A stretch of DNA of 64,000 nucleotides, taken from contig JAHJUE010000015.1 of the NCBI GenBank assembly GCA_018829205.1, positions 62,001-126,000 of the forward strand, written 5' to 3'. Origin of the DNA: Bacteroidota bacterium (lineage in GTDB: Bacteria > Bacteroidota > Ignavibacteria > Ignavibacteriales > Melioribacteraceae). The notes beneath the pieces were generated by a model. That model was not told the origin of the DNA. It did not search any database and was given only the letters and a program-made list of their open reading frames with translations. How positions within the stretch are numbered: position 1 is the stretch's first letter; each line of letters starts with the position of its first letter. Positions 23,620 to 63,819 of this stretch are shown here, piece after piece. Position numbers and translations under genes: made by a program.

Positions 23620-23663
23620 TCACCCAATAGGAGTAGTTCTTTTTTCATCCTATAGGCCGATTA
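23620..23663 (+). promoter_or_regulatory. Shared promoter element, copy 2
   Basis: Arms differ from other copies but still pair: CCAATAGGA and TCCTATAGG flank the T-rich core with one mismatch. It ends CCGATTA. A TATTTTAT box starts at 23684, exactly 20 nt after TTA, giving a good promoter. Lipoprotein gene follows 120 bp downstream. Confidence 0.8.
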
Positions 23664-23782
23664 AACATTACTAAAATTCTGCATATTTTATTTTGTAATT
23701 AATACATTAAGAAGGTCTTCATAGTTTCATACTTACCTGTGTAGAGTAAATTAATGTTCCCAAACTATTTACAAGGAGTGTT

Positions 23783-24220
23783 ATGAAAAACAAATATTTC
23801 ATCTTGCTAACGATAATGTTAATTGCCGGATCATTATTAACAGGTTGCGATAACAATCGAGATAAAACCGCCGAGAATGTTGCTGAAGATGCTAATGAAA
23901 GCAATGAACAGGCAATTTCGGATTTAATAGGTGCTTGGACCGGTACTTTTGATAATAGAGCAATTACACTTAATATTACTGAACAGACAAACAGCAGCTT
24001 TTCAGGAAACATTACTATCAGTTACAGACAAGAGATTAACCAGGAAGTGAAAGGAACATTAAATCCAACAAACTTAATAATTACAATGACAGATCAAATG
24101 CAAAGCCCGTATCAAGGAAAATACTACGGAAAATTATCAGAAGATGGCAAAAATCTTTCCGGCGATTTCACAATGGATAGCGACGGTTCAATATTTCCAT
24201 TTAACTTAAATAAAAATTAA
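23783..24220 (+). CDS. Lipoprotein, unknown beta-rich domain
   Basis: 145 residues with a lipoprotein signal peptide and lipobox LLTGC near residue 21. The N-terminal ~40 residues (MKNKYFILLTIML, GCDNNRDK, ENVAEDA) closely resemble those of the lipoprotein at 48827, whose mature part is entirely different. The mature domain (about 50-145) is beta-rich with DLIGAWTGTFDNRAITLNI, a small-barrel pattern. Function unknown. Its leader carries shared promoter element copy 2. GGAG lies before the ATG, and the next lipoprotein follows after 12 bp. Confidence 0.85.
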   Translation: MKNKYFILLTIMLIAGSLLTGCDNNRDKTAENVAEDANESNEQAISDLIGAWTGTFDNRAITLNITEQTNSSFSGNITISYRQEINQEVKGTLNPTNLIITMTDQMQSPYQGKYYGKLSEDGKNLSGDFTMDSDGSIFPFNLNKN

Positions 24221-24232
24221 AGGAAAACAATA

Positions 24233-24988
24233 ATGAAAAACCTAATTCTAATATTTTTAATCCCATTTTTAGGATTGTTCATAACATCATGCAATTCGAG
24301 TGATGATCCAGTTGCTCCCATCTATACAAAAGGGGATATTTACATAACATCAAATCCTGCCGGGGCACAAATTTGGATAGATGGCAGAAACTCATCATTA
24401 TTAACGCCTGATACTGTTGTCAATGTTGAAGAAGGTGTGAGAACATTTACTTTAAAATTGCAGGATTATAAGGATACGACTTTCGTTATCAGTGTTTCAG
24501 CTGAACAGACAAGCATTGTAGGCCCTATCGCTCTTGTTTCAAATATTGTAACGACCTTATACAGTTCTGTAAGGATTTACGAGACAACAAATACTACCTC
24601 TAGCCAACCTAGTGGATTAGATCTTTCCAGTGGAGCGGCGTATGGTGTTTCATCACCTACTAATGCAAACCTTGTGGATATTTATTATTCAAGTGAAGGG
24701 TTCCTTGTTCAGAGCGCCGATCTTTACCCAAGCCTTATTAGAGATACGAAGTTCTTTGTCGGTTCCAGTAGTAATCTTTTTGATGAAGTTGACTCTCCCG
24801 ATAAAAACGAGGGAGTTTGGACTAACAACATCGCCGATAGAGAATCCAATTACGTATTTCTTTACGATCACGACGGTCATTACTCCAAACTTAAAATAAT
24901 ATCTTGGGGCGGCGGTGTTCCAGGTGAACCAGCCTGGGTTGAAGTTCAATGGTATTATAACGAAACACAACTTGATAACCGGTTCTAA
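24233..24988 (+). CDS. Lipoprotein with PEGA domain
   Basis: Lipoprotein signal peptide ending in ITSCN (Cys near residue 20). Residues ~35-100 (GDIYITSNPAGAQIWIDGR, LTPDTVVNVEEG, FTLKLQDYKDTT) are a PEGA domain, a beta-sandwich common in cell-surface proteins. The C-terminal ~150 residues are not recognised. It is 12 bp downstream of another lipoprotein gene, and a hairpin terminator follows the stop. Confidence 0.85.
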   Translation: MKNLILIFLIPFLGLFITSCNSSDDPVAPIYTKGDIYITSNPAGAQIWIDGRNSSLLTPDTVVNVEEGVRTFTLKLQDYKDTTFVISVSAEQTSIVGPIALVSNIVTTLYSSVRIYETTNTTSSQPSGLDLSSGAAYGVSSPTNANLVDIYYSSEGFLVQSADLYPSLIRDTKFFVGSSSNLFDEVDSPDKNEGVWTNNIADRESNYVFLYDHDGHYSKLKIISWGGGVPGEPAWVEVQWYYNETQLDNRF

Positions 24989-25008
24989 TTCTATAATTTA
25001 TTTACCTG

Positions 25009-25035
25009 AAAGTCGCAGTAATGCGGCTTTTTATT
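25009..25035 (+). terminator. Rho-independent terminator after PEGA lipoprotein
   Basis: Stem AAAGTCGCA / TGCGGCTTT (one G-T pair) with loop GTAA, followed directly by TTTAT. It closes the two-lipoprotein operon. Confidence 0.75.
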
Positions 25036-25151
25036 TGCGCAAATTATTGATTACATATTAATCATAAGAACTGAGTTATCTCTATCATAGTTCGGTAAAA
25101 TTATCTAAGAGTTTTATATTCGAATTATTTTTAATAAATAGTGGATTTAAA

Positions 25152-28649: not shown

Positions 28650-28744
28650 AAATGGAATTTTAAAAAATCGAGATCTATTTCCCATATCACTACTACAATC
28701 ATACTTACCCTGTTTTGTTGATAGAAGTTTTCTTTTAATAAACT
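28650..28744. other. Short non-coding gap
   Basis: Nothing recognised between the Omp85-like gene and shared promoter element copy 4. Confidence 0.4.
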
Positions 28745-28786
28745 TGTTAAAAGATGTAGTCCTTTTTTCGTCCTTTTGGTCTATTT
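28745..28786 (+). promoter_or_regulatory. Shared promoter element, copy 4
   Basis: Core AAAAGATGTAGTCCTTTT then CGTCCTTTTGG; AAAAG pairs with CTTTT. The terminal CGATTG is degenerate (CTATTT). A TAATATTTC box starts at 28807, 20 nt after the equivalent position. The baeRF-like gene begins 136 bp downstream. Confidence 0.7.
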
Positions 28787-28921
28787 ATTTCAAATAGATT
28801 TCTTCATAATATTTCATTGAAAGAAAATGATGTTAATAAGAATTGCTTATTGATACTGTAAAAAATAATTAAATGAATTGATGTTGTTCTACATCATTAG
28901 CAATAGGAGAAAATAATTTAT

Positions 28922-30844: not shown

Positions 30845-30936
30845 GAGTAAAATGTTTTTCTTACTAATTGTCCGGTTTATGTCCTTATTGGACGAAATAA
30901 TTTTTCATTAATTCATTTAATATTTATTCTTTTCTC

Positions 30937-30980
30937 TAACCACAAAGATGTAGTTCCTTTTTCATCCCTTTGAGCGATTG
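30937..30980 (+). promoter_or_regulatory. Shared promoter element, copy 5
   Basis: CAAAG / CTTTG arms pair perfectly around GATGTAGTTCCTTTTTCATC; it ends GCGATTG. A TAGTTTG box (31001-31007) begins 20 nt after TTG, a textbook Bacteroidota -33/-7 arrangement. The small membrane-protein gene starts 80 bp downstream. Confidence 0.82.
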
Positions 30981-31060
30981 ATACAGCTTTAATCTCTTTG
31001 TAGTTTGATTACACATCGCTAATATAAATTTGTTTGATTTTAGAATAGGAGATTAATAAA

Positions 31061-31282: not shown

Positions 31283-31298
31283 GTAAAGGAGGGACAAA

Positions 31299-31517: not shown

Positions 31518-31687
31518 AACAAATGCGAAAATGTACGCAAAAATCTTTTTTACGGTATTTGAAGATTTTCTGGATTTTGAATTTATCATAACAAGATTGA
31601 ACTTCATTTTAAAAGTTTCTTAAAATAAAGTTTCAAATAACAGTTTCATTTCAAACAACACTCATCCTAAATTTAATTCGAATTAAC
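31518..31687. other. Non-coding gap before promoter element copy 6
   Basis: AT-rich; no gene, tRNA or clear terminator seen. Confidence 0.4.
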
Positions 31688-31729
31688 CCTACCTAAATGT
31701 AGTCCTTTTTTCATCCCTTTGGACTATAG
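31688..31729 (+). promoter_or_regulatory. Shared promoter element, copy 6 (degenerate 3' end)
   Basis: The core ATGTAGTCCTTTTTTCATCC is intact, but the terminal CGATTG is replaced by ACTATAG and the left arm is shortened (CTAA). It lies 154 bp upstream of the KaiC-like gene. Confidence 0.65.
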
Positions 31730-31882
31730 TAATGATTAACAGATTTATCTATTATTTATTGCTAAAAAGTAACGATAAATTAAAATAAAACTTAAATAAC
31801 TGCGTTAACCGCGTAACCGATTAAATATATATAGCAAAATTGTATATAATATAACTTATTACTCGAAAGGGGGATAAAAATA

Positions 31883-34011: not shown

Positions 34012-34854
34012 ATGGAAAAAACAATTACACAAAAGCCCGATTCTAAAAAACAGAATTTGAAAATAGATTCTGAAAATGATGACGAATCTATTTCCAAATC
34101 ATTATTAAAAAAGTTTTTTATTGAAGTATCTTCACTTACAATATTTACTTTGCGTTTTTTTAGGGAAGTATTAAAACCGCCGTATGAATTTAATGAGTTG
34201 GTAAAACAATCATTTCTTATAGGTTATAAATCCCTTCCTTTGGTCGCTATTACGGGATTTATAATTGGACTTGTGCTTACTATCCAGTCAAGGCCTACAT
34301 TAGCGAAGTTCGGAGCTGAATCATGGCTGCCGGCGATGGTGGCAGTTTCAATAATTCGTGAAATAGGACCGGTTATAACCGCCTTAATTTTTGCGGGTAA
34401 GGTCGGGTCGGGGATTGGCGCTGAATTAGCGTCTATGAATGTAACCGAACAAATTGACGCGATGCAGGTATCGCACACAAACCCGTTTAAGTATCTTGTA
34501 GTAACAAGGGTTATTTCCGCTACGGTGATGCTTCCTTTACTTGTAATATTTGCCGATGCTGTAGGTCTTTTTGGTTCCTTTATAGGCGTTAACTTAAAAG
34601 GCAATGTAAGCGCTTATTTGTTTTTTTCACAGGTATTTCAAAGTCTCGAATTTAAAGATCTTTTTCCGGCAATTATAAAAACATTTTTCTTCGGGTTTGC
34701 AATAGGACTTATAGGAAGTTATAAAGGGTATAATTCAAATAAAGGAACGGAAGGTGTAGGAAAGGCAGCCAACACAGCCGTAGTATTCGGAAGTTTAATG
34801 ATTTTTATTATTGATATGATTGCGGTACAAATTACAAGTTTGTTTCAAAGTTAA
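34012..34854 (+). CDS. mlaE: MlaE-family ABC transporter permease
   Basis: Inner-membrane permease (280 residues) of an Mla/Mce phospholipid transport system. After a polar N-terminus (1-~40), hydrophobic helices carry the MlaE signature VAITGFIIGLVLTIQSRP, EIGPVITALIFAGKVGSGIGAELASMNVTEQIDAM and the conserved C-terminal GSYKGYNSNKGTEGVGKAANTAVV. It starts the operon mlaE-mlaF-mlaD with 15 and 27 bp gaps. Confidence 0.93.
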   Translation: MEKTITQKPDSKKQNLKIDSENDDESISKSLLKKFFIEVSSLTIFTLRFFREVLKPPYEFNELVKQSFLIGYKSLPLVAITGFIIGLVLTIQSRPTLAKFGAESWLPAMVAVSIIREIGPVITALIFAGKVGSGIGAELASMNVTEQIDAMQVSHTNPFKYLVVTRVISATVMLPLLVIFADAVGLFGSFIGVNLKGNVSAYLFFSQVFQSLEFKDLFPAIIKTFFFGFAIGLIGSYKGYNSNKGTEGVGKAANTAVVFGSLMIFIIDMIAVQITSLFQS

Positions 34855-34869
34855 TTAGAGTTTTAAAAA

Positions 34870-35649
34870 ATGACAATTGTCGAATCGTCCATAGAAATAA
34901 AAAAAGATATTAAACAGAACAATTCTGTTGTTGTTGAGATGCGGAATCTTAAAAAATCATTCGAAAAAAATCATGTGCTGCGGGATATTAATTTATCAAT
35001 TAATAAAGGTGAAAATCTTGTAATACTTGGTCAATCGGGAACAGGGAAATCTGTATTAATAAAATGTATTGTCGGATTAGTTGAACTTGATGAAGGCAAG
35101 CTTTTAATATTTGGCAAAGATATCTCCGAACTTAAAAACAAAGAGCTGATTGAAATTCGTAAAAAAATAGGTTTCCTTTTCCAAAGCGGGGCTTTATATG
35201 ATTCAATGACTGTAAGAGAAAATCTTGAATTCCCGCTTACAAGACAATTGGGTTCAATACCAAAAGAAGAAATGAACTCGCTTATTGTAGAAGCATTAAC
35301 GGATGTTGGGCTTGAAGAAGCTATAGATAAAACTCCGTCGGAACTTTCCGGCGGTATGAGAAAACGATTAGGATTAGCGCGAACATTAATTCTAAAACCT
35401 GAGATTATGCTTTATGATGAACCGACAACAGGGCTTGACCCTATAACTTCAAAAGAAATAAGCAGACTTATTCTTGAGGTACAAAAAAAATATAACACTT
35501 CATCAATAATTATTACTCACGATATTGAGTGCGCTAAACTGACGGCAAACCGTATCATAGTAATAAAAGACGGAGTATGCGCCGCGCAAGGTTCTTATGC
35601 CGATCTAGAGAAATCGGCAGATTCCTGGATTAGATCCTTTTTTGAATAA
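34870..35649 (+). CDS. mlaF: MlaF-family ABC transporter ATPase
   Basis: ATPase partner of MlaE. Walker A GQSGTGKS (about residues 57-64), signature LSGGMRKRLGLAR, Walker B IMLYDEPTTGLDP and the switch His in IIITHD are present. The SGGMRKR signature is characteristic of Mla/Ttg2A ATPases. It drives lipid movement between inner and outer membranes. Confidence 0.94.
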   Translation: MTIVESSIEIKKDIKQNNSVVVEMRNLKKSFEKNHVLRDINLSINKGENLVILGQSGTGKSVLIKCIVGLVELDEGKLLIFGKDISELKNKELIEIRKKIGFLFQSGALYDSMTVRENLEFPLTRQLGSIPKEEMNSLIVEALTDVGLEEAIDKTPSELSGGMRKRLGLARTLILKPEIMLYDEPTTGLDPITSKEISRLILEVQKKYNTSSIIITHDIECAKLTANRIIVIKDGVCAAQGSYADLEKSADSWIRSFFE

Positions 35650-35676
35650 AGAAGAAAAATTAAATGAGTAAATAAA

Positions 35677-36798: not shown

Positions 36799-39756
36799 AT
36801 GAAGAAGAAAACTATTCCTAAAAAAAATACGGTTAGAAAAAAAACAACTTCCACAGAAACATCAAAACCTGATAATTCATTTTATGTAGTCGGCATTGGC
36901 GCATCAGCCGGCGGATTAGAAGCGATCGAAAGATTTTTTACAAATATGCCCGAAAACTCCGGGATGGCGTTTGTAATAGTTTCACATTTGGACCCAAATC
37001 ATATTAGCATAATGCCCGAATTAATTCAAAAATCTACAAAGATGAAATTATTCCAGGCTGAAGACGGTATGAAGGTGGAACCCAATCAAGTTTATGTTGC
37101 CCCGGCTAACCGAGATTTAGCAATTCTTCACGGTATAATTCAGCTTATTGAACCAATAGAAGCGCACGGGTTCAGGCTTCCGATTGATTTTTTCTTTAAA
37201 TCCCTTTCATCTGATATGGGTGAAAAAGCTATTTGTATAATACTCTCAGGAATGGCTTCCGACGGTACAGCGGGCCTTAAAGCTATAAAAAGCGAATTAG
37301 GAATGGTTATGGTTCATGATCCTAAATCAGCAAAATTCGACGGTATGCCTACAAGTGCAATTAAAACCGGGTTGGCCGATTACATCCTGCCGCCGGAAGA
37401 AATGCCTGCTCAATTAGTTAAATATGCATATCAAAAAGTTAAAGGTGTTTTGTTTGATAATGCTATTACCGAAGGAAAAATTCCGGATTCATTTCAGAAA
37501 ATTTTTATACTTCTTAGAAATCACACGGGGCACGACTTTTCGCTTTACAAACAAAATACCATTTACCGGCGTGTGGAAAGAAGAATGAATGTTTCACAAT
37601 TGGATAATCTCCCTAATTATATAAGACTTCTTCAGGAAAACCCGGATGAAATTGAAAACCTGTTTAAAGAACTTTTAATTGGTGTTACAAACTTTTTCAG
37701 GGATCCGGAGTCTTTCGAAAAATTGAAAAAAGTATTAACAGAATTAGTAAAAAATAAACCGGATAACGGTCAAATAAGAATTTGGGTGCCCGGATGTTCA
37801 ACAGGAGAAGAAGCTTATTCAATTGCAATTATTTTGAGGGAATGCATCGAAGAAACGAAGAAATATTTTAACGTGCAAATATTTGCGACGGATATTGACA
37901 GCAACTCAATTGAAAAAGCGCGTATCGGTACATTTTCAGGTATTGAATCAGACGTAAGCAAAGAACGTTTAAAACGTTACTTTATTTCGGAAGGCAACCA
38001 ATTCCATATTAGAAAAGAAATTAGAGAAATGCTTGTATTCGCTCCGCAAAGTATTATTAAAGATCCGCCTTTTACAAAACTTGACCTTATTTCATGCCGC
38101 AACCTGTTAATTTACTTAAATGCCGAATTACAGAAAAAAATAATTCCTTTATTTCATTATAGTCTTTTGCCTAACGGAAAACTTTTTCTAGGGTCATCGG
38201 AAACTATAAGCGGATTTGTTGATTTGTTTTCGATGGTGGATAAAAAATGGAAAATTTACCAACGTAGAGATTCTATTTATTCAGCGCAGCCTTTTATTGA
38301 ATTTCCTATATCTAAAATTAAGGAAAAATCTCAAGAGACAATTATGATAAAACATGAAGTTAAAAATATAACCCAGCTGGCCGAAAAAATCATTCTCCAA
38401 AATTATTCTCCTAATTGTGTATTAATAAATGAGAAGGGAGATATTTTATATATTCACGGTAAAACCGGTAAATATCTTGAACTTACGGGCGGCGAAGCAA
38501 AAATGAATATATTTGAAATGGCGCGCGAAGGTTTGCAGCAAGAACTTACGGCATTAACAAGAAAAGTTTTATCATCTAAAAAATCATTAACAACAGATGG
38601 TATAAAGATAAGGTCCAACGGCAGCACACATTATATAAATCTAACCGTTACGCCGGTAAAAGAACCTTCGGTAATGTCCGGCTCACTGCTTATAATTTTT
38701 GAAGATGTAATTACGCAAAAGAAAGCGCCGGTTTCTAAGAAAATTAATAATGATAAAAAATCTGAAAAATTAATTAAAGAACTTGAGCGCGAATTAAAAT
38801 CTACTAAAGAAAATTTAAGATCTACCATTGAGGAATTGGAAACCTCAAACGAGGAACTTAAATCGACCAATGAAGAACTTCAATCAACAAATGAAGAAAT
38901 GCAAAGCTCCAATGAGGAAATGGAAACATCCAAAGAAGAATTGCAGTCTCTTAACGAAGAACTAATTACGGTAAACACCGAGTTGCAGAATAAGAATGAT
39001 GAATTATCTACTATTAATAATGATATGAAAAACCTGCTCGACAGTATTGATATTCCAACCATCTTTCTTGATAATAATTTGCATATTAAAAGATTTACGC
39101 ATCACGCTACAAAGGTTGTGAATCTTATATCTTCAGATATCGGCAGACCGATTAATCATATAGCTACAAATCTTAAATATGAAAAACTTTATGAGGACGC
39201 TAAAGAAGTTTTAAGAACCCTTGCATTTAAAGAAATTGAGCTGCAGACCAAGGACGGTATCTGGTATCAGATGCGGATATTACCTTATAGGACAATAAGC
39301 AATTTAATTGACGGCGTTGTAATAACATTTACAAATATTGATAAATTAAAAATCGCCTACGGAGAAATTCATAAGTTAAATTTAGACTTACAGCGTACGA
39401 AAGATTATTCCAATAATATTGTTGAAACTGTTAGAGACGCGCTTCTTATTCTTGATACTGATTTAAAAGTACTTTCAGCCAACAGGTCTTTTTACAAACT
39501 ATTCGACACCGTAAGCGAAAAAACAGTTGGTAAGTATATTTATGATCTTGAAGATCGTAATTGGGATATACCCGAACTGCGTAAACTTCTTGAAGAAATA
39601 ATTCCCGAGCGTACTTTTTTTGAGGATTATGAAGTTAATTACAACTTTAAAAAAGACGGTACAAAAAAATTATTGTTAAATGCCCGCGAAATATTTCACG
39701 GGGATAAGGAATCACAACTCATTCTTCTTGCAATCCAGCACCAAAGATTAAAATAA
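36799..39756 (+). CDS. CheB-CheR-PAS fusion sensor protein
   Basis: 985 residues. CheB-like domain (about 30-215): GASAGG with Ser36, SHLDPNH, GMASDGTAGL. CheR methyltransferase (about 230-500): VPGCSTGEEAYSIAI, ATDIDSNSIEKAR, FTKLDLISCRNLLIYL. A PAS-like region follows (about 530-640), then a Glu/Asn/Ser-rich coiled coil (about 652-747) and two PAS domains (about 750-985). Such fusions usually end in a histidine kinase; here it is encoded separately, 14 bp downstream. Likely a soluble multi-input signalling scaffold. Confidence 0.93.
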   Translation: MKKKTIPKKNTVRKKTTSTETSKPDNSFYVVGIGASAGGLEAIERFFTNMPENSGMAFVIVSHLDPNHISIMPELIQKSTKMKLFQAEDGMKVEPNQVYVAPANRDLAILHGIIQLIEPIEAHGFRLPIDFFFKSLSSDMGEKAICIILSGMASDGTAGLKAIKSELGMVMVHDPKSAKFDGMPTSAIKTGLADYILPPEEMPAQLVKYAYQKVKGVLFDNAITEGKIPDSFQKIFILLRNHTGHDFSLYKQNTIYRRVERRMNVSQLDNLPNYIRLLQENPDEIENLFKELLIGVTNFFRDPESFEKLKKVLTELVKNKPDNGQIRIWVPGCSTGEEAYSIAIILRECIEETKKYFNVQIFATDIDSNSIEKARIGTFSGIESDVSKERLKRYFISEGNQFHIRKEIREMLVFAPQSIIKDPPFTKLDLISCRNLLIYLNAELQKKIIPLFHYSLLPNGKLFLGSSETISGFVDLFSMVDKKWKIYQRRDSIYSAQPFIEFPISKIKEKSQETIMIKHEVKNITQLAEKIILQNYSPNCVLINEKGDILYIHGKTGKYLELTGGEAKMNIFEMAREGLQQELTALTRKVLSSKKSLTTDGIKIRSNGSTHYINLTVTPVKEPSVMSGSLLIIFEDVITQKKAPVSKKINNDKKSEKLIKELERELKSTKENLRSTIEELETSNEELKSTNEELQSTNEEMQSSNEEMETSKEELQSLNEELITVNTELQNKNDELSTINNDMKNLLDSIDIPTIFLDNNLHIKRFTHHATKVVNLISSDIGRPINHIATNLKYEKLYEDAKEVLRTLAFKEIELQTKDGIWYQMRILPYRTISNLIDGVVITFTNIDKLKIAYGEIHKLNLDLQRTKDYSNNIVETVRDALLILDTDLKVLSANRSFYKLFDTVSEKTVGKYIYDLEDRNWDIPELRKLLEEIIPERTFFEDYEVNYNFKKDGTKKLLLNAREIFHGDKESQLILLAIQHQRLK

Positions 39757-39770
39757 AGAGGTACCACAAA

Positions 39771-41066
39771 ATGAAACGTACCAATAAAGAACCGGCAAAA
39801 ACTGATACTACAAAAACGAAGAAAAAAACGAAGAAAAAAACGAATCTTAAATCTGAAAAACCGGCTGTTGAAAATTTTGAAGATGTGCAGAGGCTTGTAC
39901 ATCTGCTCCAGGTTCACCAGGTTGAATTGGAACATCAAAACGAAGAGTTAAGAATTACGCAGGAAGAATTGGAAGTATCAAGAAACAAATATGTAAACCT
40001 TTTCGATTTTTCCCCGGTTCCGTATTTTACTCTAAACGCCGACGGTATTATTAAAGAAGTTAATTTGAGAGCCAGTAAAATGTTTGAAATTGATAGGAAT
40101 AAATTAATTGGTAAAAATTTAATTTCTTTTATACATGTGGATGAAAAAGATGTTTTTAATTCATTTATTAAAACTGTTTTTGCATATCCGGCAAAACACT
40201 CGTGCGAATTAAAAATAATAAACAAAAATAAACGGGTTTTTTACGTACTGTTGGAAGGCCTTAAATTTGACGACACTCTTGAATCTATTAATCAATGTCA
40301 AATTGCGTTAATTGACTTGACGGAATACAAAAGGGTTGAAGATTCTTTAATCGGCATAAATGAAGAATTAAAATTATTAAATGATACCAAGGATAAATTT
40401 TTCTCAATAATCGCGCATGATTTAAGAAGTCCTTTTCAATCTTTGTTAAGTTATTCGGAGCTGCTTGCAACGGAAATTGAAACATTATCACATGAAGAAT
40501 TATTATTATACAGCAAAGGGCTGCATAATAATTTAAATAATTTTTATATGCTGCTTGAAAATTTACTTAACTGGTCCATTATGCAAAGAAACATGCTTGA
40601 ATATAAACCGGAAAATCTTAATTTATACGAAATAGTTGATAAAGCCATTGTGACATCAAATCAAATAGCCGGTAAAAAGAATATTTCATTATCTAACAAA
40701 GTTAATACCGGAACATTAGTTTATGCTGATGCTGATATGCTCTCTTCGGTACTGCAGAATCTTATTATTAACGCGATAAAATTCACACAAATAAATGGAA
40801 ATGTAATTGTTTCATCAATTGATAATGATAGTATTGTTGAGGTCTCTGTCCAAGACACAGGTATAGGAATTGAACCGGCAAATTCTTCCAAACTTTTTAA
40901 CTTTAATACAATTTTTACAACTAACGGAACTGCCGGGGAAAAAGGAACAGGACTTGGACTGCCGCTATGTAAAGAATTTGTTGAAAGAAATGAGGGCAAA
41001 ATTTGGGTCGAAAGTGAATTAGGAAAAGGCTCAAAATTTAAATTCACGTTACGAAAAGCTATCTAG
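39771..41066 (+). CDS. Cytoplasmic PAS histidine kinase
   Basis: 431 residues. A Lys/Thr-rich N-terminus and coiled coil (about 40-75, HQVELEHQNEELRITQEELEV in pieces) lead to a PAS domain (about 75-185). HisKA follows with the phospho-His in AHDLRSPF (near 215), then HATPase_c with NLIINAIKFT, DTGIGI and GEKGTGLGLPLCKEF. There is no membrane segment. It follows the CheB-CheR-PAS gene by 14 bp and precedes response regulator 2 by 96 bp, so these three probably form one phosphorelay. Confidence 0.94.
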   Translation: MKRTNKEPAKTDTTKTKKKTKKKTNLKSEKPAVENFEDVQRLVHLLQVHQVELEHQNEELRITQEELEVSRNKYVNLFDFSPVPYFTLNADGIIKEVNLRASKMFEIDRNKLIGKNLISFIHVDEKDVFNSFIKTVFAYPAKHSCELKIINKNKRVFYVLLEGLKFDDTLESINQCQIALIDLTEYKRVEDSLIGINEELKLLNDTKDKFFSIIAHDLRSPFQSLLSYSELLATEIETLSHEELLLYSKGLHNNLNNFYMLLENLLNWSIMQRNMLEYKPENLNLYEIVDKAIVTSNQIAGKKNISLSNKVNTGTLVYADADMLSSVLQNLIINAIKFTQINGNVIVSSIDNDSIVEVSVQDTGIGIEPANSSKLFNFNTIFTTNGTAGEKGTGLGLPLCKEFVERNEGKIWVESELGKGSKFKFTLRKAI

Positions 41067-41162: not shown

Positions 41163-41855
41163 ATGAAAAAAATCCAAATACTACTTGTTGAGGACAACAG
41201 ACTTCTGAGAGACGGTATATCGGCAATACTGAAAAAACAACCGGACATGCATGTTGTCGCTGAGGTTGGGAACGGCGAAAAGATTTTAGATGTTATTAAA
41301 AATCATAAACCGGATATTATACTTCTCGATCTTGGTCTGCGTGGCCAAAACAGCTTGCAATTAGTAAATTCGATTAAGAAAAGTTATCAGGGAATTAATA
41401 TTATAGTTATGGACCTTATTCCTAATCAGAATGATATTTACGATTTTATAAAAGCAGGCGCTTCCGGTTTTCTTCTCAAGGACGCAAGCGTTTCTGAATT
41501 TTATAAAACTATAAGAGCCGTATATCAAGGCGGACAATTTTTACCGCCGCAATTAACCGGTTCGCTATTTACTCAAATTATTGATCATGCCGTTAGTCAG
41601 TCCAAACCTTCATTCATTGAAAAATCTGTGCGAATGACCAAACGAGAAAATCAAGTAATAACATTAATTTCAGACGGACTGACAAATAAAGAAATAGCGC
41701 AAAAACTTCGTCTATCTCCTTATACTGTAAAAAGTCACGTACATAACATACTTGAAAAATTAGCTCTTACTACACGTGTACAGATTGCTAAATATGTACA
41801 TCTTTCTGAAAATTATAAAATCTCCGCAGATGACTCTTCTCAAAACCCTGAATAA
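41163..41855 (+). CDS. NarL/LuxR-type response regulator, paralogue 2
   Basis: 230 residues, same architecture and length as the regulators at 12276 and 54098: Glu10-Asp11, Asp56 (LLDLGL), Asp84 at the switch position (VMDL), Lys106, and a LuxR helix-turn-helix (MTKRENQVITLISDG, TNKEIAQKL, TVKSHVHNILEKL). It is the only one of the three next to a histidine kinase. Shared promoter element copy 7 begins 15 bp after its stop. Confidence 0.94.
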   Translation: MKKIQILLVEDNRLLRDGISAILKKQPDMHVVAEVGNGEKILDVIKNHKPDIILLDLGLRGQNSLQLVNSIKKSYQGINIIVMDLIPNQNDIYDFIKAGASGFLLKDASVSEFYKTIRAVYQGGQFLPPQLTGSLFTQIIDHAVSQSKPSFIEKSVRMTKRENQVITLISDGLTNKEIAQKLRLSPYTVKSHVHNILEKLALTTRVQIAKYVHLSENYKISADDSSQNPE

Positions 41856-41870
41856 TACCTTTTAACAAAT

Positions 41871-41913
41871 CATCTAAAAGATGTAGTCCCTTTATCATCC
41901 TTTTGCCCGATTG
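41871..41913 (+). promoter_or_regulatory. Shared promoter element, copy 7
   Basis: AAAAGATGTAGTCCCTTT then ATCATCCTTTT and GCCCGATTG. A TATATTTT box (41934-41941) starts exactly 20 nt after TTG. It precedes the lmo0937-type/AI-2E operon by 102 bp. Confidence 0.82.
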
Positions 41914-42015
41914 ATGAGCTTAAATCATATTCATATATTTTTATCAAAAATTATAGATCAAAACGAGGCATATTCAATAACTAAAAAGTAAATAATTATA
42001 ATAGGAGAATGAACT

Positions 42016-44736: not shown

Positions 44737-44781
44737 CTCGCCCGAATGGATTAGTCCTTTTTTCGTCCCTTTGTCCGATTG
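44737..44781 (+). promoter_or_regulatory. Shared promoter element, copy 8
   Basis: CTCGCCC, then GGATTAGTCCTTTTTTCGTCCC and GTCCGATTG. GGAT can pair with GTCC. It lies 66 bp upstream of the T9SS-sorted ice-binding-type gene. The -7 box is not clear. Confidence 0.72.
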
Positions 44782-44847
44782 TTTTAAGCATTTTATTTCA
44801 GTTCCTTATATCAGTTTCTAAAGAGACAATAATATGAGGAATTATTT

Positions 44848-46990: not shown

Positions 46991-47025
46991 CTACAAATAA
47001 TTATTCCTTTATTGATAACACTTTC

Positions 47026-47069
47026 TCACCTGAAAGATGTAGTCCTTTTTTCATCCTTATGCCCGATTG
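47026..47069 (+). promoter_or_regulatory. Shared promoter element, copy 9
   Basis: CTCACC, AAAGATGTAGTCCTTTTT, TCATCC and GCCCGATTG all present. A TAAATTCT sequence at 47090 begins 20 nt after TTG. The DUF4398 lipoprotein gene follows 110 bp downstream. Confidence 0.8.
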
Positions 47070-47179
47070 GATTTGGAAGGCAACATAAATAAATTCTTTT
47101 GATTTCAGAGTATAAATTTTACTCATGAATTCCAGTATAGAAATATCAATTTAAATAAAACCTTTAAAGGAGGATTCAT

Positions 47180-49829: not shown

Positions 49830-49882
49830 GTACAATATTGACAAAATGATTGAGTTGAGGAAATTTGAGATCATATTTTTAA

Positions 49883-49925
49883 CCGGCAGAAGATGTAGTT
49901 CTTTTTTCATCCTTTTGCCCGATTG
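49883..49925 (+). promoter_or_regulatory. Shared promoter element, copy 10
   Basis: The outer arms GGCA and TGCC pair, with AAGATG/CATCCTT continuing inward. The end is GCCCGATTG and a TAACTTTA box (49946-49953) starts exactly 20 nt after TTG. YtxH gene begins 71 bp downstream. Confidence 0.84.
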
Positions 49926-49996
49926 AAACTATTTGATTTCATATCTAACTTTAGATAAAAATTAGTTTAATGTTTTCTAAATGAAAGGAATTTTAT

Positions 49997-51251: not shown

Positions 51252-51383
51252 ATTAATCAAAAATAAATCCAGTGATCAATATTTTATTTGAAAGATATAT
51301 TCAGCAGACATTTTAAGAAATAAAAATTCAATAAGAATTAAATACGATTTGCTAAAATTATGATTACTGATTGTAAATCATAT
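51252..51383. other. Non-coding gap before promoter element copy 11
   Basis: AT-rich; nothing recognised. Confidence 0.4.
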
Positions 51384-51426
51384 TACCCAAACGATGTAGT
51401 CCATTTTTCATCCCAATGTACCATTG
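51384..51426 (+). promoter_or_regulatory. Shared promoter element, copy 11
   Basis: TTACCC, GATGTAGTCCATTTTTCATC with GATG/CATC able to pair, and ACCATTG at the end. A perfect TAACTTTG box is present at 51452-51459, but 25 nt after TTG rather than 20. Thivi_2564-like gene begins 158 bp downstream. Confidence 0.72.
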
Positions 51427-51583
51427 TTCGCTCCATAAATACTTGCTATCATAACTTTGCAACATTGAACAACTGTTAGATATTCTATTCATGCCGATAA
51501 ATCAGAAATCATTTGGTGTATGAATAAATAATATTTCCAATAAGAAAATATCGTTCAACAATAATAATATAAGGAAAGCGAAT

Positions 51584-53801: not shown

Positions 53802-53877
53802 AATTAACTTTATAATATTCTGCAACACACAACAACTAATTGTAAATCAAATCTGAATTTTCATCTTTGTTAAAAAC

Positions 53878-53920
53878 CACCCAAAGGATGTAGTCCTTTT
53901 TTCATCCTTTTGACTGATTG
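53878..53920 (+). promoter_or_regulatory. Shared promoter element, copy 12
   Basis: AAAGGATG and CATCCTTT pair perfectly over 8 bp; flanked by CACCC and GACTGATTG. It lies 177 bp upstream of response regulator 3, which suggests autoregulation if that regulator binds the element. The -7 box is not well placed. Confidence 0.82.
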
Positions 53921-54097
53921 AATCTGTTTCTCAAACAATTGCATTATAGTATTGAATTGAATCATGTAATGTCTATAAAAAAAGTCGATTTATATTTTAG
54001 AATTAATATTCGGTATTAATTTGTTAAGCAATGTTTATGTAAAAAAAAACTAAATGAAATAATTAAGAATGAACAACATTCATATTGAGAATTAATT

Positions 54098-54790
54098 ATG
54101 AAAAAAATCAGATTATTACTAATCGAAGATAACCGTCTTCTTCGTGATGGAATCCTCGGCATTCTTAAACCTTATAAAGATATTGTTATACTTACTGCAT
54201 CTGGTGATGCTAAAAAAACATTCCTAAAAGTACAGCAATTAAAGCCGAACGTGGTTCTTTTAGATTTAGGATTGAGAAGTTTGAATAGCTTGCATGTTGT
54301 GGAAATGGTGAAAAAGGATTTCCCTGAAGCTAAAATAATAATTATGGATCTTGCTCCGATTCATGCGGATATTCTGCAGTATGTAAAAGCCGGAGCCAAC
54401 GGTTTTATATTAAAAGATGCTTCACTTAATGATTTTTTAATAACTATACGAACAGTCGCGGAAGGTTCAACTGTTCTTCCTCCGTTATTAGTTGATTCAC
54501 TTTTTTCTCAAATTGTTGAACATGCTGTAAGAGAAGGAAAAACTAAATTGAAAGAAGCGGTTCGTATGACAAAGAGGGAGAGGGAAGTTGTAGGATTGCT
54601 TGGGGAAGGATTAAGCAATAAAGAGATAGGCCAAAAAATTCATATCTCAACTTACACCGTGAAAAGTCATATACATAACATTATGGAAAAACTGGCTCTT
54701 CATACACGTCTCGAAATTGCAAATTATTCTTACACAGATGAAACGCATAGAACAATTTCTAAAAGTATATCAATGGTAAACAATAGTTAA
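54098..54790 (+). CDS. NarL/LuxR-type response regulator, paralogue 3
   Basis: 230 residues, aligned end to end with the regulators at 12276 and 41163: Glu10-Asp11, Asp56 (LLDLGL), Asp84 at the switch site (IMDLAP), Lys106, LuxR helix-turn-helix (MTKREREVVGLLGEG, SNKEIGQKI, TVKSHIHNIMEKL). It is the most divergent of the three. It has no kinase neighbour and is preceded by shared promoter element copy 12. A GC-rich hairpin follows its stop. Confidence 0.94.
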   Translation: MKKIRLLLIEDNRLLRDGILGILKPYKDIVILTASGDAKKTFLKVQQLKPNVVLLDLGLRSLNSLHVVEMVKKDFPEAKIIIMDLAPIHADILQYVKAGANGFILKDASLNDFLITIRTVAEGSTVLPPLLVDSLFSQIVEHAVREGKTKLKEAVRMTKREREVVGLLGEGLSNKEIGQKIHISTYTVKSHIHNIMEKLALHTRLEIANYSYTDETHRTISKSISMVNNS

Positions 54791-55638: not shown

Positions 55639-55741
55639 ATATTAAGAAAGGAAAAACAAAAAGATAATTACAAAATCAATTGTAATATTATTTAAAACGA
55701 TCAATGATCGATGAAATACAATTATAGATAGGGCAATCTCT

Positions 55742-55784
55742 CACCCAAAAGTATTAGTTCTCTTTTCATTCTTTTGACCGATTA
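55742..55784 (+). promoter_or_regulatory. Shared promoter element, copy 13
   Basis: CTCACCC, then CAAAAG / CTTTTG arms (6 perfect pairs) around TATTAGTTCTCTTTTCATT, ending ACCGATTA. A TATTTTAT box (from 55805) begins exactly 20 nt after TTA. The large Ig-repeat lipoprotein starts 76 bp downstream. Confidence 0.8.
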
Positions 55785-55859
55785 CAACATGCCTATTAAC
55801 AGTGTATTTTATTTCAGAATAAGTAAAGAAAAATAATTAATCATAGGAGTTGAAATAAA

Positions 55860-58800
55860 ATGAACAAAATTAAAAACTATTTTATGTTGTGGTTGATACC
55901 ATTACTTACAATTATAATTATGGCCGGCTGCGAGCAGCGAGATGGATTAACTTCTCCGCCGCTTACAACCACACCAACAGTGAGTTCTACAAATCCTGAG
56001 AATGCCGCGGCAGAGGTTCCGTTTAATCAGCAAATTACGGCAACCTTCAGTGAAGATATGAACTCTTCAACAATTACAACGGCGACATTTACATTGATGC
56101 AAGGAACATCATTTGTTTCGGGCACAGTTTCTTATACAGGAACAATTGCTGCATTTGCGCCGACAAGCAATTTATCACCCAACACAGTTTATACTGCCAC
56201 AATTACGACAATGGCAAAAAACCTTATGGGAGTTTCACTAAGCAGCAACTATATTTGGAGTTTTACAACCGGCTCAGCCGCAGCAGTTACAGCGCCGACT
56301 GTAAGTTCTACAGATCCTGTTAATGGCGCAGCGGGCGTACCCATCAATCAAAAAATTGCGGCTACGTTTAGTGTTGCCATGGATGCGACAACTATTACAT
56401 CCTCAACATTTACTATTCTGCAAGGAACAACACCGATTTCAGGATTTGTTTCTTATTCAGGTATAACCGCAATTTTTGCGCCTTCGACTAATCTAATGCC
56501 AAATACAGCTTATACAGGCACAATTACTACTGGAGCAAAAGATCTTGCAGGCAACGCATTGGCTAATAACTATGTATGGAGTTTTACAACAGGCGCCACT
56601 GCAATAGTTACGCCGCCAATTGTTAGTTTAACTGATCCGGCAAATTTAGAAACAAATGTTCCGCTAAATCAAAAAGTTGCAGCTACATTTAGCAAAACAA
56701 TGGATGCTACAACAATTACTTCGGGAACATTTACACTAAGACAAGGAACAACATCTGTCTCAGGATTTACTTCTTATTCTGGCACAACGGCAATATTTGC
56801 CCCGGCTAATAATTTAGCGCCAAATACCGTTTATACGGCAACAATTACTACAGGCGCTACTGATCTTGCGGGAAATGCTTTAGCAAATAATTATGAATGG
56901 AGTTTTACAACAGGCGCTGCCGTAGTTATTACCCCGCCTATTGTAAGTTCTACTGATCCGGCTAATGCAGAAATAGGTGTGCCTTTAAACCAAAAAATAG
57001 CTGCGACTTTCAGTAAAACTATGGATGCCACTACTATTAGTAATGCAACATTCACATTATTGCAAGGTACAAATTCGGTTACGGGATTCGTTTCATACTC
57101 GGGTAGCACAGCTACTTTCGCACCGGAAAATAATCTTTTACCAAATTCAACTTATAGCGCTGTTATAACAACAGGTGCTAAAGATCTTGCTGGAAATGCA
57201 TTAGAAAATAATTATACATGGAGTTTTACTACCGGATCTGCTGTTGTTATTACTCCTCCGACTGTAAGTTTAACAGATCCATTAAATAATGAAATAAATG
57301 TTCCGCTTAATCAAAAAGTTTCCGCTACATTTAGTAAGACTATGGATGCAACAACGATTACATCGGGAACTTTTACATTAAAACAAGGAACTACATCAGT
57401 TTCAGGATTCGTTTCATATTCCGGTACAACTGCAATATTTTCACCGGCTAATGATTTAACGTCTAATACAGTTTATACGGCAACAGTTACTTCAGGCGCA
57501 AAAGATCTTGCAGGAAACGCATTAGTAAATAATTATGTTTGGAGTTTTACAACCGGTTCTTCAGTTGTAATCACTCCGCCAACAGTTATTTCTACTGTCC
57601 CGGCTGATGCTGATATAAATGTACCGTTAAATCAGAAAGTTTCGGCCACATTTAGCAAAACAATGAATGCTTCAACGATTACCGGAGCTACATTTACTTT
57701 AAAACAGGGTAATAACTCTGTTTCGGGTTTTGTTTCTTACTCCGGCACAACGGCAATATTTACCCCTGCTAGTAACCTGGCTCCCAATACTGTTTATACG
57801 GGAACTATTACAAGTGAAGCTAAAGATCTTGCCGGTAACTCATTGGCTAATAACTATGTATGGAGTTTTACAACTGGATCATCTCCGGTTATTATTCCTC
57901 CAACAATAGTTTCTACTGATCCGGATGATTTAGAGATATGCGTTCAATTGGACAAAAGTATTACAGCTACATTTAGTAAACCTATGAATGCTTCAACCAT
58001 TACAACCGCAATATTTACTTTAATGCGAGATAATAGATTTATTGCTGGCACAGTAAGTTATATAGGTAATACCGCAACTTTTAATCCTTCGGATAGTCTT
58101 TTACCTAATGCAACTTATATAGCCACAATAACTACAGGAGCCAGAGACCTGACAGGCACATCTCTTGAAGAAAATTATGTGTGGAGTTTTACAACTGTGG
58201 TTCCTTACACTGTAAGCTTGTCATCTAATCCATTGGACGGCGGTACTACAAATGGAAGCGGTACCTTTAATTCTTGTGATTTAATTACGGTAACCGCAAC
58301 ACCTAACGCCGGATTCACATTTACTAACTGGACAGAAAATGGAAACCCGGTATCAACAAATGCTGTTTATGAATTTACTTTGGACGGAAATAAAATATTG
58401 ACTGCTAACTTTGCACCAATACAGTATACAGTATCGCTATCATCAAATCCTGCATTAGGCGGAACAACAAACGGAAGCGGATCATATAATTTTGGTGCTT
58501 CTGTAACAGTAACTGCGACTGCAAATCTCGGATATGAATTTGTTAATTGGACGGAAAACGGAAATGAAGTTTCCACAAATTCAAATTATCAATTCACATT
58601 AGAAGGAAATACAACATTAGTTGCAAACTTTAATGTACTTCCTTCAGCATATTTAGTAACGCTATCATCAAATCCTATTGCAGGCGGAACAACAAACGGC
58701 GGCGGTACATATGATGAAGGTTCTTTGGTTACAGTAACTGCGACCGCAAATCTCGGATATGAATTTACCAACTGGACTGAAGGTGGATTAGAAGTCTCAA

Positions 58801-59507
58801 CTAATGCAAATTATGAATTTACAATAAATGGAAACAGAACATTAACTGCTAATTTTCTTTTGACTGCGCCATCTGGTCCCGCGACGGTGAATCTTGGCTC
58901 GGCAGGCGATTTTGCGATACTTGCAGGTTCCGGAGTTTCTAACATCGGTTTATCTATAATTTACGGTGATGTCGGAGCATTTCCTACCTCAACAATTAAT
59001 GGTTTCCCTCCCGGAGTTGTTAATGGTACGCTTTATATGAGCGCTGATCCTATAGTGGATGCTGCAAAGGGCGCTTTAACGGCTGCTTATAACGACGCAC
59101 AGGGAAGATCATTAGACGCAATTTCATTGCCCGGACAAATAGGCGGTTTAACTCTTGCTCCCGGACTTTATGTTAACTCTACTACAAGCGGAATATCTGG
59201 TACAGGACCAAACGGTATTTTAACTCTGGATGCCGGCGGAAATGAAAACGCTGTATGGATCTTCAAAGTAGGGTCTACATTTATAACAGATGCAGGCACA
59301 AGCATTGTTCTTGCCGGAGGCGCTAAATGGGAAAACATCTTCTGGTCGGTCGGAACTTCAGCTACTCTTGGTACTAATTCGGTTTTCTACGGAAATATCC
59401 TAGCTGACCAGGCTATCACTTTAACCACCGGTGCGGTATTGACCGGAAGAGCGTTAACAAGAATTGCTGCAGTAACATTAGAATCAAATATTGTAGACAA
59501 AAGATAA
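55860..59507 (+). CDS. Giant lipoprotein: 7 Big_5 repeats, 3 InlB-type repeats, DUF3494 ice-binding-like domain
   Basis: 1215 residues. Lipobox IMAGC (Cys24), so anchored in a membrane. Residues ~38-780 hold seven ~105-residue bacterial Ig-like (Big_5) units, each starting near PTVSSTDPAN, with ATFSKTMDATTI and ending NNYVWSFTTG. Residues ~780-1003 hold three ~74-residue InlB/List-Bact-type units (TVTATANLGYEF-NWTE). Residues ~1003-1215 are DUF3494 (NLGSAGDFAILAGSGVSN, AYNDAQGRSLDAI, WIFKVGSTFITDAG). A surface-exposed extended adhesin is inferred; ice binding is a family property only. Promoter element copy 13 lies upstream. Confidence 0.93.
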   Translation: MNKIKNYFMLWLIPLLTIIIMAGCEQRDGLTSPPLTTTPTVSSTNPENAAAEVPFNQQITATFSEDMNSSTITTATFTLMQGTSFVSGTVSYTGTIAAFAPTSNLSPNTVYTATITTMAKNLMGVSLSSNYIWSFTTGSAAAVTAPTVSSTDPVNGAAGVPINQKIAATFSVAMDATTITSSTFTILQGTTPISGFVSYSGITAIFAPSTNLMPNTAYTGTITTGAKDLAGNALANNYVWSFTTGATAIVTPPIVSLTDPANLETNVPLNQKVAATFSKTMDATTITSGTFTLRQGTTSVSGFTSYSGTTAIFAPANNLAPNTVYTATITTGATDLAGNALANNYEWSFTTGAAVVITPPIVSSTDPANAEIGVPLNQKIAATFSKTMDATTISNATFTLLQGTNSVTGFVSYSGSTATFAPENNLLPNSTYSAVITTGAKDLAGNALENNYTWSFTTGSAVVITPPTVSLTDPLNNEINVPLNQKVSATFSKTMDATTITSGTFTLKQGTTSVSGFVSYSGTTAIFSPANDLTSNTVYTATVTSGAKDLAGNALVNNYVWSFTTGSSVVITPPTVISTVPADADINVPLNQKVSATFSKTMNASTITGATFTLKQGNNSVSGFVSYSGTTAIFTPASNLAPNTVYTGTITSEAKDLAGNSLANNYVWSFTTGSSPVIIPPTIVSTDPDDLEICVQLDKSITATFSKPMNASTITTAIFTLMRDNRFIAGTVSYIGNTATFNPSDSLLPNATYIATITTGARDLTGTSLEENYVWSFTTVVPYTVSLSSNPLDGGTTNGSGTFNSCDLITVTATPNAGFTFTNWTENGNPVSTNAVYEFTLDGNKILTANFAPIQYTVSLSSNPALGGTTNGSGSYNFGASVTVTATANLGYEFVNWTENGNEVSTNSNYQFTLEGNTTLVANFNVLPSAYLVTLSSNPIAGGTTNGGGTYDEGSLVTVTATANLGYEFTNWTEGGLEVSTNANYEFTINGNRTLTANFLLTAPSGPATVNLGSAGDFAILAGSGVSNIGLSIIYGDVGAFPTSTINGFPPGVVNGTLYMSADPIVDAAKGALTAAYNDAQGRSLDAISLPGQIGGLTLAPGLYVNSTTSGISGTGPNGILTLDAGGNENAVWIFKVGSTFITDAGTSIVLAGGAKWENIFWSVGTSATLGTNSVFYGNILADQAITLTTGAVLTGRALTRIAAVTLESNIVDKR

Positions 59508-61955: not shown

Positions 61956-62012
61956 AAAAAATATTCTGTTGTAAACATTTTAATAATTATTAAAACGTAG
62001 TGGAGTAATAGA

Positions 62013-62684
62013 ATGAAAAAAATAAAAGTTATGGTTATGATTACCGCGTTAATTGGCATGGTAATAATTAACGGATGCGGAGCCAGCAACGCTGTTAAAG
62101 GCGGGCTAATAGGCGGTGCCGGCGGCGGAGCTGTCGGTGGAGTAATAGGACATTATGCAGGCAATACAGTGCTTGGCGCAATAATTGGCGCTGCAGTCGG
62201 CGGTACGGCCGGAGCTTTAATTGGAAATTATATGGATAACCAGGCTGAAGAAATGCAGAACGATATTTCAGGAGCAAATATTGAAAGAGTCGGGGAGGGT
62301 ATAAAAATTACATTCGATTCCGGAATATTATTCGCTACTAATTCTTCAACGCTTGAACCTCAAGCCAAAACCAACATTAGTAAACTAGCTGTAATTTTAA
62401 ATAAATATCCAGATACAAATATATTAGTAACTGGACATACTGATTCTGACGGATCTGATCAATACAATCAAACCTTGTCCGAAAGCAGAGCTAAAACAGT
62501 TTCTAATTTTACGGGCATGCAGGGAGTTTCATCTTCAAGATTTTCAGTTGTTGGTCTTGGCGAAAACGAACCTGTTGCATCAAATGACAGCGATAGCGGA
62601 AAGCGTATGAACAGAAGAGTTGAGATTGCAATATTCGCTAATGAAAAACTTAAAGATGCGGCCGAAAGCGGCGGACTAAAGTAA
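62013..62684 (+). CDS. OmpA-family lipoprotein with glycine-zipper
   Basis: 223 residues. Lipobox INGC (Cys near residue 22), a glycine-zipper segment (GGLIGGAGGGAVGGVIGHYAG in pieces, and GAAVGGTAGALIGNYMD), then an OmpA domain (about 95-210) with ILVTGHTDSDGSDQYNQTLSESRAKTV and NRRVEIAIF. Overall a YiaD-like architecture. A hairpin terminator follows. Confidence 0.93.
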   Translation: MKKIKVMVMITALIGMVIINGCGASNAVKGGLIGGAGGGAVGGVIGHYAGNTVLGAIIGAAVGGTAGALIGNYMDNQAEEMQNDISGANIERVGEGIKITFDSGILFATNSSTLEPQAKTNISKLAVILNKYPDTNILVTGHTDSDGSDQYNQTLSESRAKTVSNFTGMQGVSSSRFSVVGLGENEPVASNDSDSGKRMNRRVEIAIFANEKLKDAAESGGLK

Positions 62685-62746
62685 ATAACAATGTGTTGAT
62701 TTTAGTAAGAATCGTTGCATAGATTAAAATATAATTAAGATTAGAA

Positions 62747-62780
62747 ATTTCCCCGTGTTTATACGGGGAAGTTTTATTTT
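62747..62780 (+). terminator. Terminator after OmpA/glycine-zipper gene
   Basis: TTCCCCGT / ACGGGGAA, 8 perfect pairs with a 6-nt loop, followed by GTTTTATTTT. It separates this gene from the convergent mscS-type gene. Confidence 0.82.
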
Positions 62781-62803
62781 CTCAAACAATTAACAAATCC
62801 AAC

Positions 62804-63688
62804 TTATTGATTTAATATCTTTTCGCTTGAAGGCATTTCTTTTATATACAAATCACGCTGAGGGAAGGGAATTTCAACACCGCATTCCTTAAACTTTTTG
62901 AATATCTCAAAATAAAGCTGACTCTTCAACAAAGCGGGTTTATCAGAATATGTATTTGTCCAAATACTAAGATTAAACATCAAAGAACTATCTCCGTATT
63001 CATCGAACAGAACTTTAGGTTCAGGTTCGCTAAGTACATCCGTGTTTTCGGACGCTATAGTAAATAAAATATTTTTAATGTTTTCCGGATCTTCTTTATA
63101 TGATACACCAACAGGGAAACTGAACCGCACTGTTTTATCAGTATGACTCCAATTAATTACAGTTGAAGAAATGAATTCCGAATTAGGCACAATTATAGAA
63201 ATATTATCGTTTGTTAAAACTGTTGTCGCACGCATTGAGATATTTGTGACATCGCCGTTTATATTGCCGACTTCAATTCTGTCGCCAACTTTAATAGGTC
63301 TTTCAAATAAAATTATTACTCCGCTAACAAAATTATTTGTAATATTTTGGAGACCGAAACCGATACCGACTCCAAGTGCGCCGAGAAGAACGGTAAGACT
63401 GTTCAAATTTATACCCACGGTTTGAATAATAATTATAAAACCAAATGTTAATATTGCATACCTGAATATCGTTCCTACAGCAATACGAACGCCTAAATCT
63501 ATTTTGCTTTTTGCTAAAAGTTTATAGATAATTATTTTATTTAATTTTTTTGTAATATAAAAAAGCATAATAAGAAGCAATAAAAGGTAACTTAAAGTCC
63601 AGAACGTAATTGTTGAATTACCAACAGTGAATATTGGAACACTTAAAAAATCGACAATATCTTGAAAATATTTTTCTGCATCATCCAT
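62804..63688 (-). CDS. MscS-family mechanosensitive ion channel
   Basis: 294 residues. N-terminal hydrophobic helices (about 15-45, 65-90, 95-125); the pore helix is LTVLLGALGVGIGFGLQNITNNFVSG with the Gly/Ala pattern of TM3; the beta domain starts LFERPIKVGDRIEVGNINGDV and includes TTVLTNDNISIIVPNSEFISSTVINWSH. Protects against osmotic downshock. The start ATG at 63688 has AAGGAGGG upstream. It is divergent from the next gene. Confidence 0.94.
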   Translation of the reverse strand: MDDAEKYFQDIVDFLSVPIFTVGNSTITFWTLSYLLLLLIMLFYITKKLNKIIIYKLLAKSKIDLGVRIAVGTIFRYAILTFGFIIIIQTVGINLNSLTVLLGALGVGIGFGLQNITNNFVSGVIILFERPIKVGDRIEVGNINGDVTNISMRATTVLTNDNISIIVPNSEFISSTVINWSHTDKTVRFSFPVGVSYKEDPENIKNILFTIASENTDVLSEPEPKVLFDEYGDSSLMFNLSIWTNTYSDKPALLKSQLYFEIFKKFKECGVEIPFPQRDLYIKEMPSSEKILNQ

Positions 63689-63774
63689 AATCCCTCCTTA
63701 AAGGAAAAGTAACCAAAGCATTATATTGTTAAAAAATAACTCAGGATATAATAATCATTAAATTGGAATATTAA

Positions 63775-63819
63775 CTCATCCTAATGGTGTAGTTCTTTTT
63801 TCATCCCTTTGATGGATTG
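63775..63819 (+). promoter_or_regulatory. Shared promoter element, copy 14
   Basis: CTCATCC, GGTGTAGTTCTTTTTTCATC (GGTG/CATC with one G-T pair) and GATGGATTG. It is on the plus strand, between mscS (minus) and the partial PAS gene (plus), 48 bp before the latter. No clear -7 box. Confidence 0.72.

Follow-up and report, generated by a model that had tools for sequence, protein, structure and literature searches.

The window analysed here is the whole 64,000-nucleotide stretch (positions 62,001 to 126,000, forward strand) of contig JAHJUE010000015.1 from a Bacteroidota bacterium of the class Ignavibacteria, order Ignavibacteriales (GCA_018829205.1). A repeat search of the window revealed 13 copies of a 48-nt element, every one of them on the + strand and together spanning 12982-63822; 14 columns are invariant among them, and the remaining 12 copies show 67-88% identity to the reference copy. 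All 13 copies are intergenic, in a surrounding stretch that is 84% coding by our own choice of open reading frames, and one of them (12982) lies 5' of the position at which an initial annotation of this DNA had started. The same island encodes three NarL/LuxR-type response regulators (RRs), designated RR1, RR2 and RR3. The family annotation covered 51 genes of the window, from 12 kb onward, and the features that matter for the argument are as follows.

12276..12968, +, RR1, NarL/LuxR-type response regulator, candidate activator
12982..13029, +, copy 1, 13 nt 3' of RR1; leads the radical-SAM/B12 DUF4070 gene 13100
23619..23666, +, copy 2, leads 23783 (unassigned), then 24233 (PEGA domain)
28742..28789, +, copy 3, leads 28922 (no family match)
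30936..30983, +, copy 4, leads 31061 (no Pfam match)
31685..31732, +, copy 5, leads the KaiC-like ATPase gene 31883
36799..39756, +, CheB-CheR-PAS protein, candidate signalling partner judged from its position
39771..41066, +, PAS histidine kinase directly upstream of RR2, candidate partner judged from its position
41163..41855, +, RR2, NarL/LuxR-type response regulator, candidate activator
41869..41916, +, copy 6, 13 nt 3' of RR2; leads lmo0937/DUF5670 42016 and AI-2E 42186
44737..44784, +, copy 7, leads the ice-binding DUF3494 protein 44848
47025..47072, +, copy 8, leads DUF4398 47180 and DUF4398-OmpA 47565; CsbD 48540 farther downstream
49881..49928, +, copy 9, leads YtxH 49997; Transgly_assoc/GlsB-type 51000 farther downstream
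51382..51429, +, copy 10, leads Thivi_2564 51584; PRC-barrel 52555 farther downstream
53876..53923, +, copy 11, leads RR3
54098..54790, +, RR3, NarL/LuxR-type response regulator, candidate activator and target, element in front
55740..55787, +, copy 12, leads the Big_5/ice-binding (DUF3494) protein 55860
63775..63822, +, copy 13, gene behind it truncated by the contig end

The element is largely confined to this island within its genome. With a 20-base pattern and up to three mismatches, 11 forward sites were found in the 4.59 Mb genome, all inside the window, and none in reverse, while the reversed-pattern control gave one match in the same genome. A sequence-only model (E < 1e-6) yielded 15 genome sites, comprising the 13 window copies, one site on contig C35 and one on contig C3, and the best weaker match below these was on C15 at 7e-4. 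Since 13 of the 15 strong sites fall in the window, the element marks mainly a local regulon and not a genome-wide repeat. The C3 element (L244, about 8052-8092) is isolated, distant from the island, and lies in front of a 745-aa gene. The C35 element (L243) lies directly behind the gene for a 957-aa multi-PAS histidine kinase, which is a candidate sensor of the regulon. A weight matrix built from the 186 instances described below recovered all 13 window copies at scores of at least 12, compared to a best score of -0.36 in ten versions of the window generated by a first-order Markov model, and found no match in the 40 kb directly upstream on the contig (L009, L011).

The element recurs across Ignavibacteria, including other families of the class. 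The pattern with one mismatch was matched in 25 of 58 genomes (own genome counted), several of them with dense clusters, and among the matches listed in this contig pattern search Ignavibacteria, Ignavibacteriales, Melioribacter and Stygiobacter predominated. The model detected the element in 89 of the 294 class genomes. In a sample of 296 genomes drawn from across the phylum it was detected in 14, of which all but one belong to the class; the one outside it has a single match. Viral contigs gave nine pattern matches. We found no title or abstract opening that describes the element or the regulator clade, in a literature search outside of which most subscription papers fell.

The anatomy of the element was derived from 186 of 215 distinct instances; the 29 excluded had poor flanks (score under 5), three of them (L019, L022, L053) coming from the order and the rest for the most part from Bacteroidota outside it or from different phyla. 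The consensus consists of a C-rich start, AAAGATGTAGTyCCTTTTTCATCCyTTTG, 2 free bases, CGATTG, 20 free bases and TAnnTT. The conserved upstream site covers about 37 bp, from about -77 to -41 relative to the inferred transcription start site (TSS), and its TyCCTTT/TCCyTTT block recurs as a direct repeat every 11 bp (r of 0.86 across 259 near sites and of 0.80 across 46 distant ones), located upstream of the -35 region. TAnnTT stands at the exact fixed distance in 47.3% of the 186 instances, compared to at most 4.3% at the other printed positions; in the window, TAnnnT occurs at the expected place in 9 of the 13 copies, with the full TAnnTT in 6 of those. A purine follows 7 nt past the box in 77% of box-bearing instances, and the start codon, found for 179 of the 186 instances, lies a median of 58 nt 3' of the inferred TSS. 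These features favour reading the element as a putative composite promoter, in which an activator site abuts a housekeeping-type -33/-7 promoter. The available part of one report gives TAnnTTTG as the sigma-A -7 box of a flavobacterium (PMC9723704), and the trailing TG showed no enrichment across our instances.

RR1, RR2 and RR3 are paralogous, each with receiver and GerE domains, and the element starts 13 nt after RR1 and after RR2 and precedes RR3. RR2 matched the solved structures of NarL (4e-33) and DevR (5e-23). Like NarL, VraR, DesR and DevR/DosR, all with solved structures, the clade combines a receiver with a LuxR-type helix-turn-helix domain; unlike NarL and VraR, it carries Asp at the switch Ser/Thr position in 12 of 13 aligned members and Gly in one (by-eye comparison with NarL Ser and VraR Thr), while the phospho-acceptor D56 and K106 are invariant in all 13. 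Judged from this alignment, the clade receiver is atypical, with Asp at the switch position and D56 and K106 retained. The genome holds 13 LuxR-type domain matches, two weak ones within sigma genes, and only the three island RRs have a nearby element (scores of 63-69 versus at most -19). A comparison of 64 window genes against the element loci from 7 further genomes found counterparts in every one of the 7 for the three RRs and lmo0937 alone. No transcription factor besides the RRs had relatives throughout these clusters, and of the 13 genes lying left of 12 kb, 11 were unmatched in them. At 34012-41855, the lipid-transport genes (MlaE, ABC ATPase, MlaD) adjoin signalling genes and run into those of the CheB-CheR-PAS protein, the PAS histidine kinase and RR2, with no element in front.

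Presence of the regulator clade and of the element is associated across the class. We called a genome clade-positive at E <= 1e-45 to RR alignment A2 (82 positive and 212 negative of 294 class genomes); A2 was built from RRs in element clusters, and those genomes match by construction. Relying on the pattern taken from the window and not on the model, at least one match was found in 45 of 82 clade-positive versus 15 of 212 clade-negative genomes, at least two in 27 of 82 versus 1 of 212, and at least three in 24 of 82 versus 0 of 212, comparisons for which Fisher values ignore phylogeny, the genomes being related. Within the order, at least two matches occurred in 17 of 20 clade-positive and 1 of 39 clade-negative genomes. 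The association also separates close relatives: in genus g2, genomes with the clade have 2, 15, 22 and 32 matches and those without it 0, 0 and 0, and in genus g54 the corresponding figures are 13 versus 0, 0 and 0, with the more permissive model adding 3 weak sites in one clade-negative g2 genome and 1 in one g54 negative. The sole clade-negative genome with at least two pattern matches (G118) carries a clade gene with stops directly before the element (C132, L226), which suggests either that the system was lost recently or that the assembly is faulty there. With respect to adjacency, an element lies within 400 bp on the same strand of 50 of 74 clade genes, compared to about 5.6 expected from site density, in loci partly selected for holding an RR or element. 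The RR-element-RR order recurs (e.g. L195-L198, L217, L223, L224), and in other families the element was present at 20 of 20 clade loci, which were selected by RR, in two of them on the opposite strand only.

The families of the genes behind the element hint at a possible function. Among the 25 commonest families listed per scan for 179 element-led first genes (one window gene was taken with its annotated start and not with the script's), there were 11 LuxR-type, 12 DUF5670/lmo0937, 12 ice-binding, 7 KaiC and at least 6 CsbD genes, plus PAS kinases; given that RR3 is itself element-led, the LuxR-type first genes indicate that RRs are at least targets. In the order, a same-strand site stands in front of 12 of 24 examined CsbD regions (26 CsbD matches in all) and, among the lmo0937 regions (45 matches in all), of 4 out of 16 examined in addition, and five further lmo0937 genes (G000, G034, G047, G050, G057) have a site in front. 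Among the 59 genomes of the order, CsbD was found in 12 of the 20 that have the clade and 1 of the 39 lacking it, and lmo0937 in 15 and 3 of these, respectively, with Fisher values that again leave phylogeny out of account. In the genome studied here, both are single-copy and within the island, its CsbD gene not being the first behind an element. The gene set (CsbD, YtxH, lmo0937, ice-binding, OmpA/DUF4398 and KaiC-like proteins) suggests a general-stress and envelope-protection programme, and the putative stress role rests on these gene families. Behind copy 12, the 1215-aa protein (55860-59507) looks from its composition like a surface adhesin: it combines seven Big_5 repeats, each unit 321 nt long, with three Flg_new_2 repeats and an ice-binding domain at the C terminus. 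Inside the island and without an element (17600-23507) lie genes for a phosphoketolase, an S30AE ribosome-hibernation-type protein, a class I aldolase, DUF302 and PPK2; gene 60872 had no match in an NCBIfam search, the only one made for it.

The initial annotation had taken a series of element-led genes to look like a stress and envelope regulon. The positions bear it out for YtxH, lmo0937 followed by AI-2E, Thivi_2564, DUF4398-OmpA, the two DUF3494 proteins, KaiC and the response regulator, and CsbD, GlsB-type and PRC-barrel genes are indeed interspersed, farther down behind element-led genes. No family match supports the baeRF-like and Omp85-like labels (26721 has neither a match nor an element) or the AsmA-like label on 43264, and the PAS genes 36799 and 39771, one of which would be the sensor supposed to be element-led, have no element in front. 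The comparative data lend good support to the view that the element marks a single stress- and envelope-rich regulon, CsbD and lmo0937 being enriched in clade-positive genomes.

We consider it quite probable that the composite promoter, bound by the NarL/LuxR-type RR clade, switches on the stress and envelope units together. The upstream 37 bp or so of each copy would be the binding site of the RR1-RR3 clade, holding a direct repeat of TyCCTTT-like half-sites with an 11-bp period, and the -33-like CGATTG and, 20 nt on, the -7-like TAnnTT would be recognized by RNA polymerase carrying the primary sigma factor. A signalling pathway, possibly involving the PAS proteins 36799 and 39771, would activate the regulators, which would bind beside the polymerase, as activators rather than repressors, and turn on about 15 transcription units jointly, RR3 among them. 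The element-led RR3, which the initial annotation had counted among the targets, is more likely to be the controller, besides being a target.

Several observations weigh against this reading. The pattern is absent from 37 of the 82 clade-positive genomes and present at least once in 15 of the 212 clade-negative ones. By the model, 6 of the 82 clade genomes are site-free and 13 of the 212 others have at least one site, in a table (76/6/13/199) that is biased, as model R1 includes sites from RR loci; six of the 13 have at least two sites, and five of those six hold only weaker RRs (best about 150 bits), bar a short contig-edge fragment in G061. No close element accompanies 24 of the 74 clade genes, and at L193 and L199 the sole site is on the opposite strand. 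The inverted repeat (dyad) within the element gives a weak signal (r 0.54) without covariation, and a perfect dyad site was rejected on this weak signal. Generic TTG-gap-TAnnTTTG arrangements elsewhere gave 6 and 5 intergenic matches at gaps of 19 and 20, compared to 0-5 at the other gaps, with no clear peak, so the primary-sigma reading stands by analogy. Finally, since gains and losses of the clade coincide with those of the island, co-occurrence alone could be linkage.

An alternative sigma factor of the extracytoplasmic function (ECF) type, encoded elsewhere in the genome, might instead own the element as its promoter. A Sigma70_r2 search of the genome (RpoN was not searched) found one 284-aa primary-type sigma and 14 further matches in ECF-sized open frames (178-217 aa). 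In flavobacteria, ECF sigmas can use a TAnnTTGY box according to the available part of PMC9723704, and the missing TG enrichment after TAnnTT would also fit. However, the strongest conservation lies upstream of both boxes and extends well beyond the length of a sigma site, the 51 annotated window genes include no sigma gene, and none of the 15 sigma loci carries the element (scores <= -10.7), which makes this explanation unlikely. Nor does the element look like the promoter of a stress sigma: at the 3' end it is similar to an ordinary -33/-7 promoter, and in the upstream half to an activator site. The proposal that it replaces a stress sigma stands only as an analogy.

That some other DNA-binding protein from outside the island binds the element, with the RRs as linked passengers or targets, would explain why RR3 is element-led and why 11 of the 179 first genes carry a LuxR domain; we regard it as decidedly unlikely, as no other transcription factor has relatives in 7 of 7 clusters and the RR-element adjacency is also seen in other families. 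That the element acts as an RNA structure in the 5' leader appears very improbable. In some copies, GATG...CATC and AAAG...CTTT could base-pair, but neither pairing covaries, there is no Rfam match, and a promoter-like box lies at a fixed place downstream; the RNA hairpin, for which these two pairings were tried, was rejected for want of covariation. The conserved upstream site with the fixed CGATTG/TAnnTT layout fits an activator site beside a promoter and not an RNA structure. The many copies within one 51-kb stretch could also recall a mobile or selfish repeat without a regulatory role, an idea we find hardly credible: 13 of 13 copies are intergenic and face the gene that follows or, in the case of copy 13, the contig end, the copies diverge around an invariant core, and the element is conserved in other families of the class.

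Among characterized systems, DosR of mycobacteria is a NarL-type regulator, not a sigma factor, that drives dormancy survival genes. By analogy, the proposed system would resemble the DosR dormancy regulon in having a NarL-type regulator run a survival gene set, and differs from it in that most element sites are in one co-oriented island. ComA of Bacillus subtilis, a LuxR-type RR, offers a likeness at the operator: as far as the available part of the report describes it, type II activation there involves hexameric half-sites as a direct repeat with a 5-nt spacer and an inverted repeat upstream (PMC4797271), which parallels the 11-bp period beside the promoter here, while the half-site sequence differs and the inverted repeat of the element is weak and without covariation. 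The likeness to the SigB general stress regulon of B. subtilis lies in the gene families: the available part of PMC7824861 places csbD and ytxH in the SigB core set, which upholds for these two the earlier remark that several families are SigB- or RpoS-dependent elsewhere. The island differs from that regulon in having no SigB-like sigma among the annotated window genes and in the activator control proposed for it.

We tentatively propose, as a possibility close to evenly balanced, that these loci represent a class-wide Ignavibacteria general stress response, run by an atypical-receiver NarL-type clade through one standardised composite promoter, with a regulon held mostly in one co-oriented island. 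To our knowledge, the organisation of the general stress response in bacteria without SigB, RpoS and EcfG is poorly known. For this little-studied class, the analysis offers a candidate regulator, a predicted operator with a predicted TSS, and a target list that includes the small 'stress' proteins CsbD, YtxH, lmo0937 and Thivi_2564, and the rule that a gene with the element upstream would be a regulon member is directly applicable to Ignavibacteria genomes.

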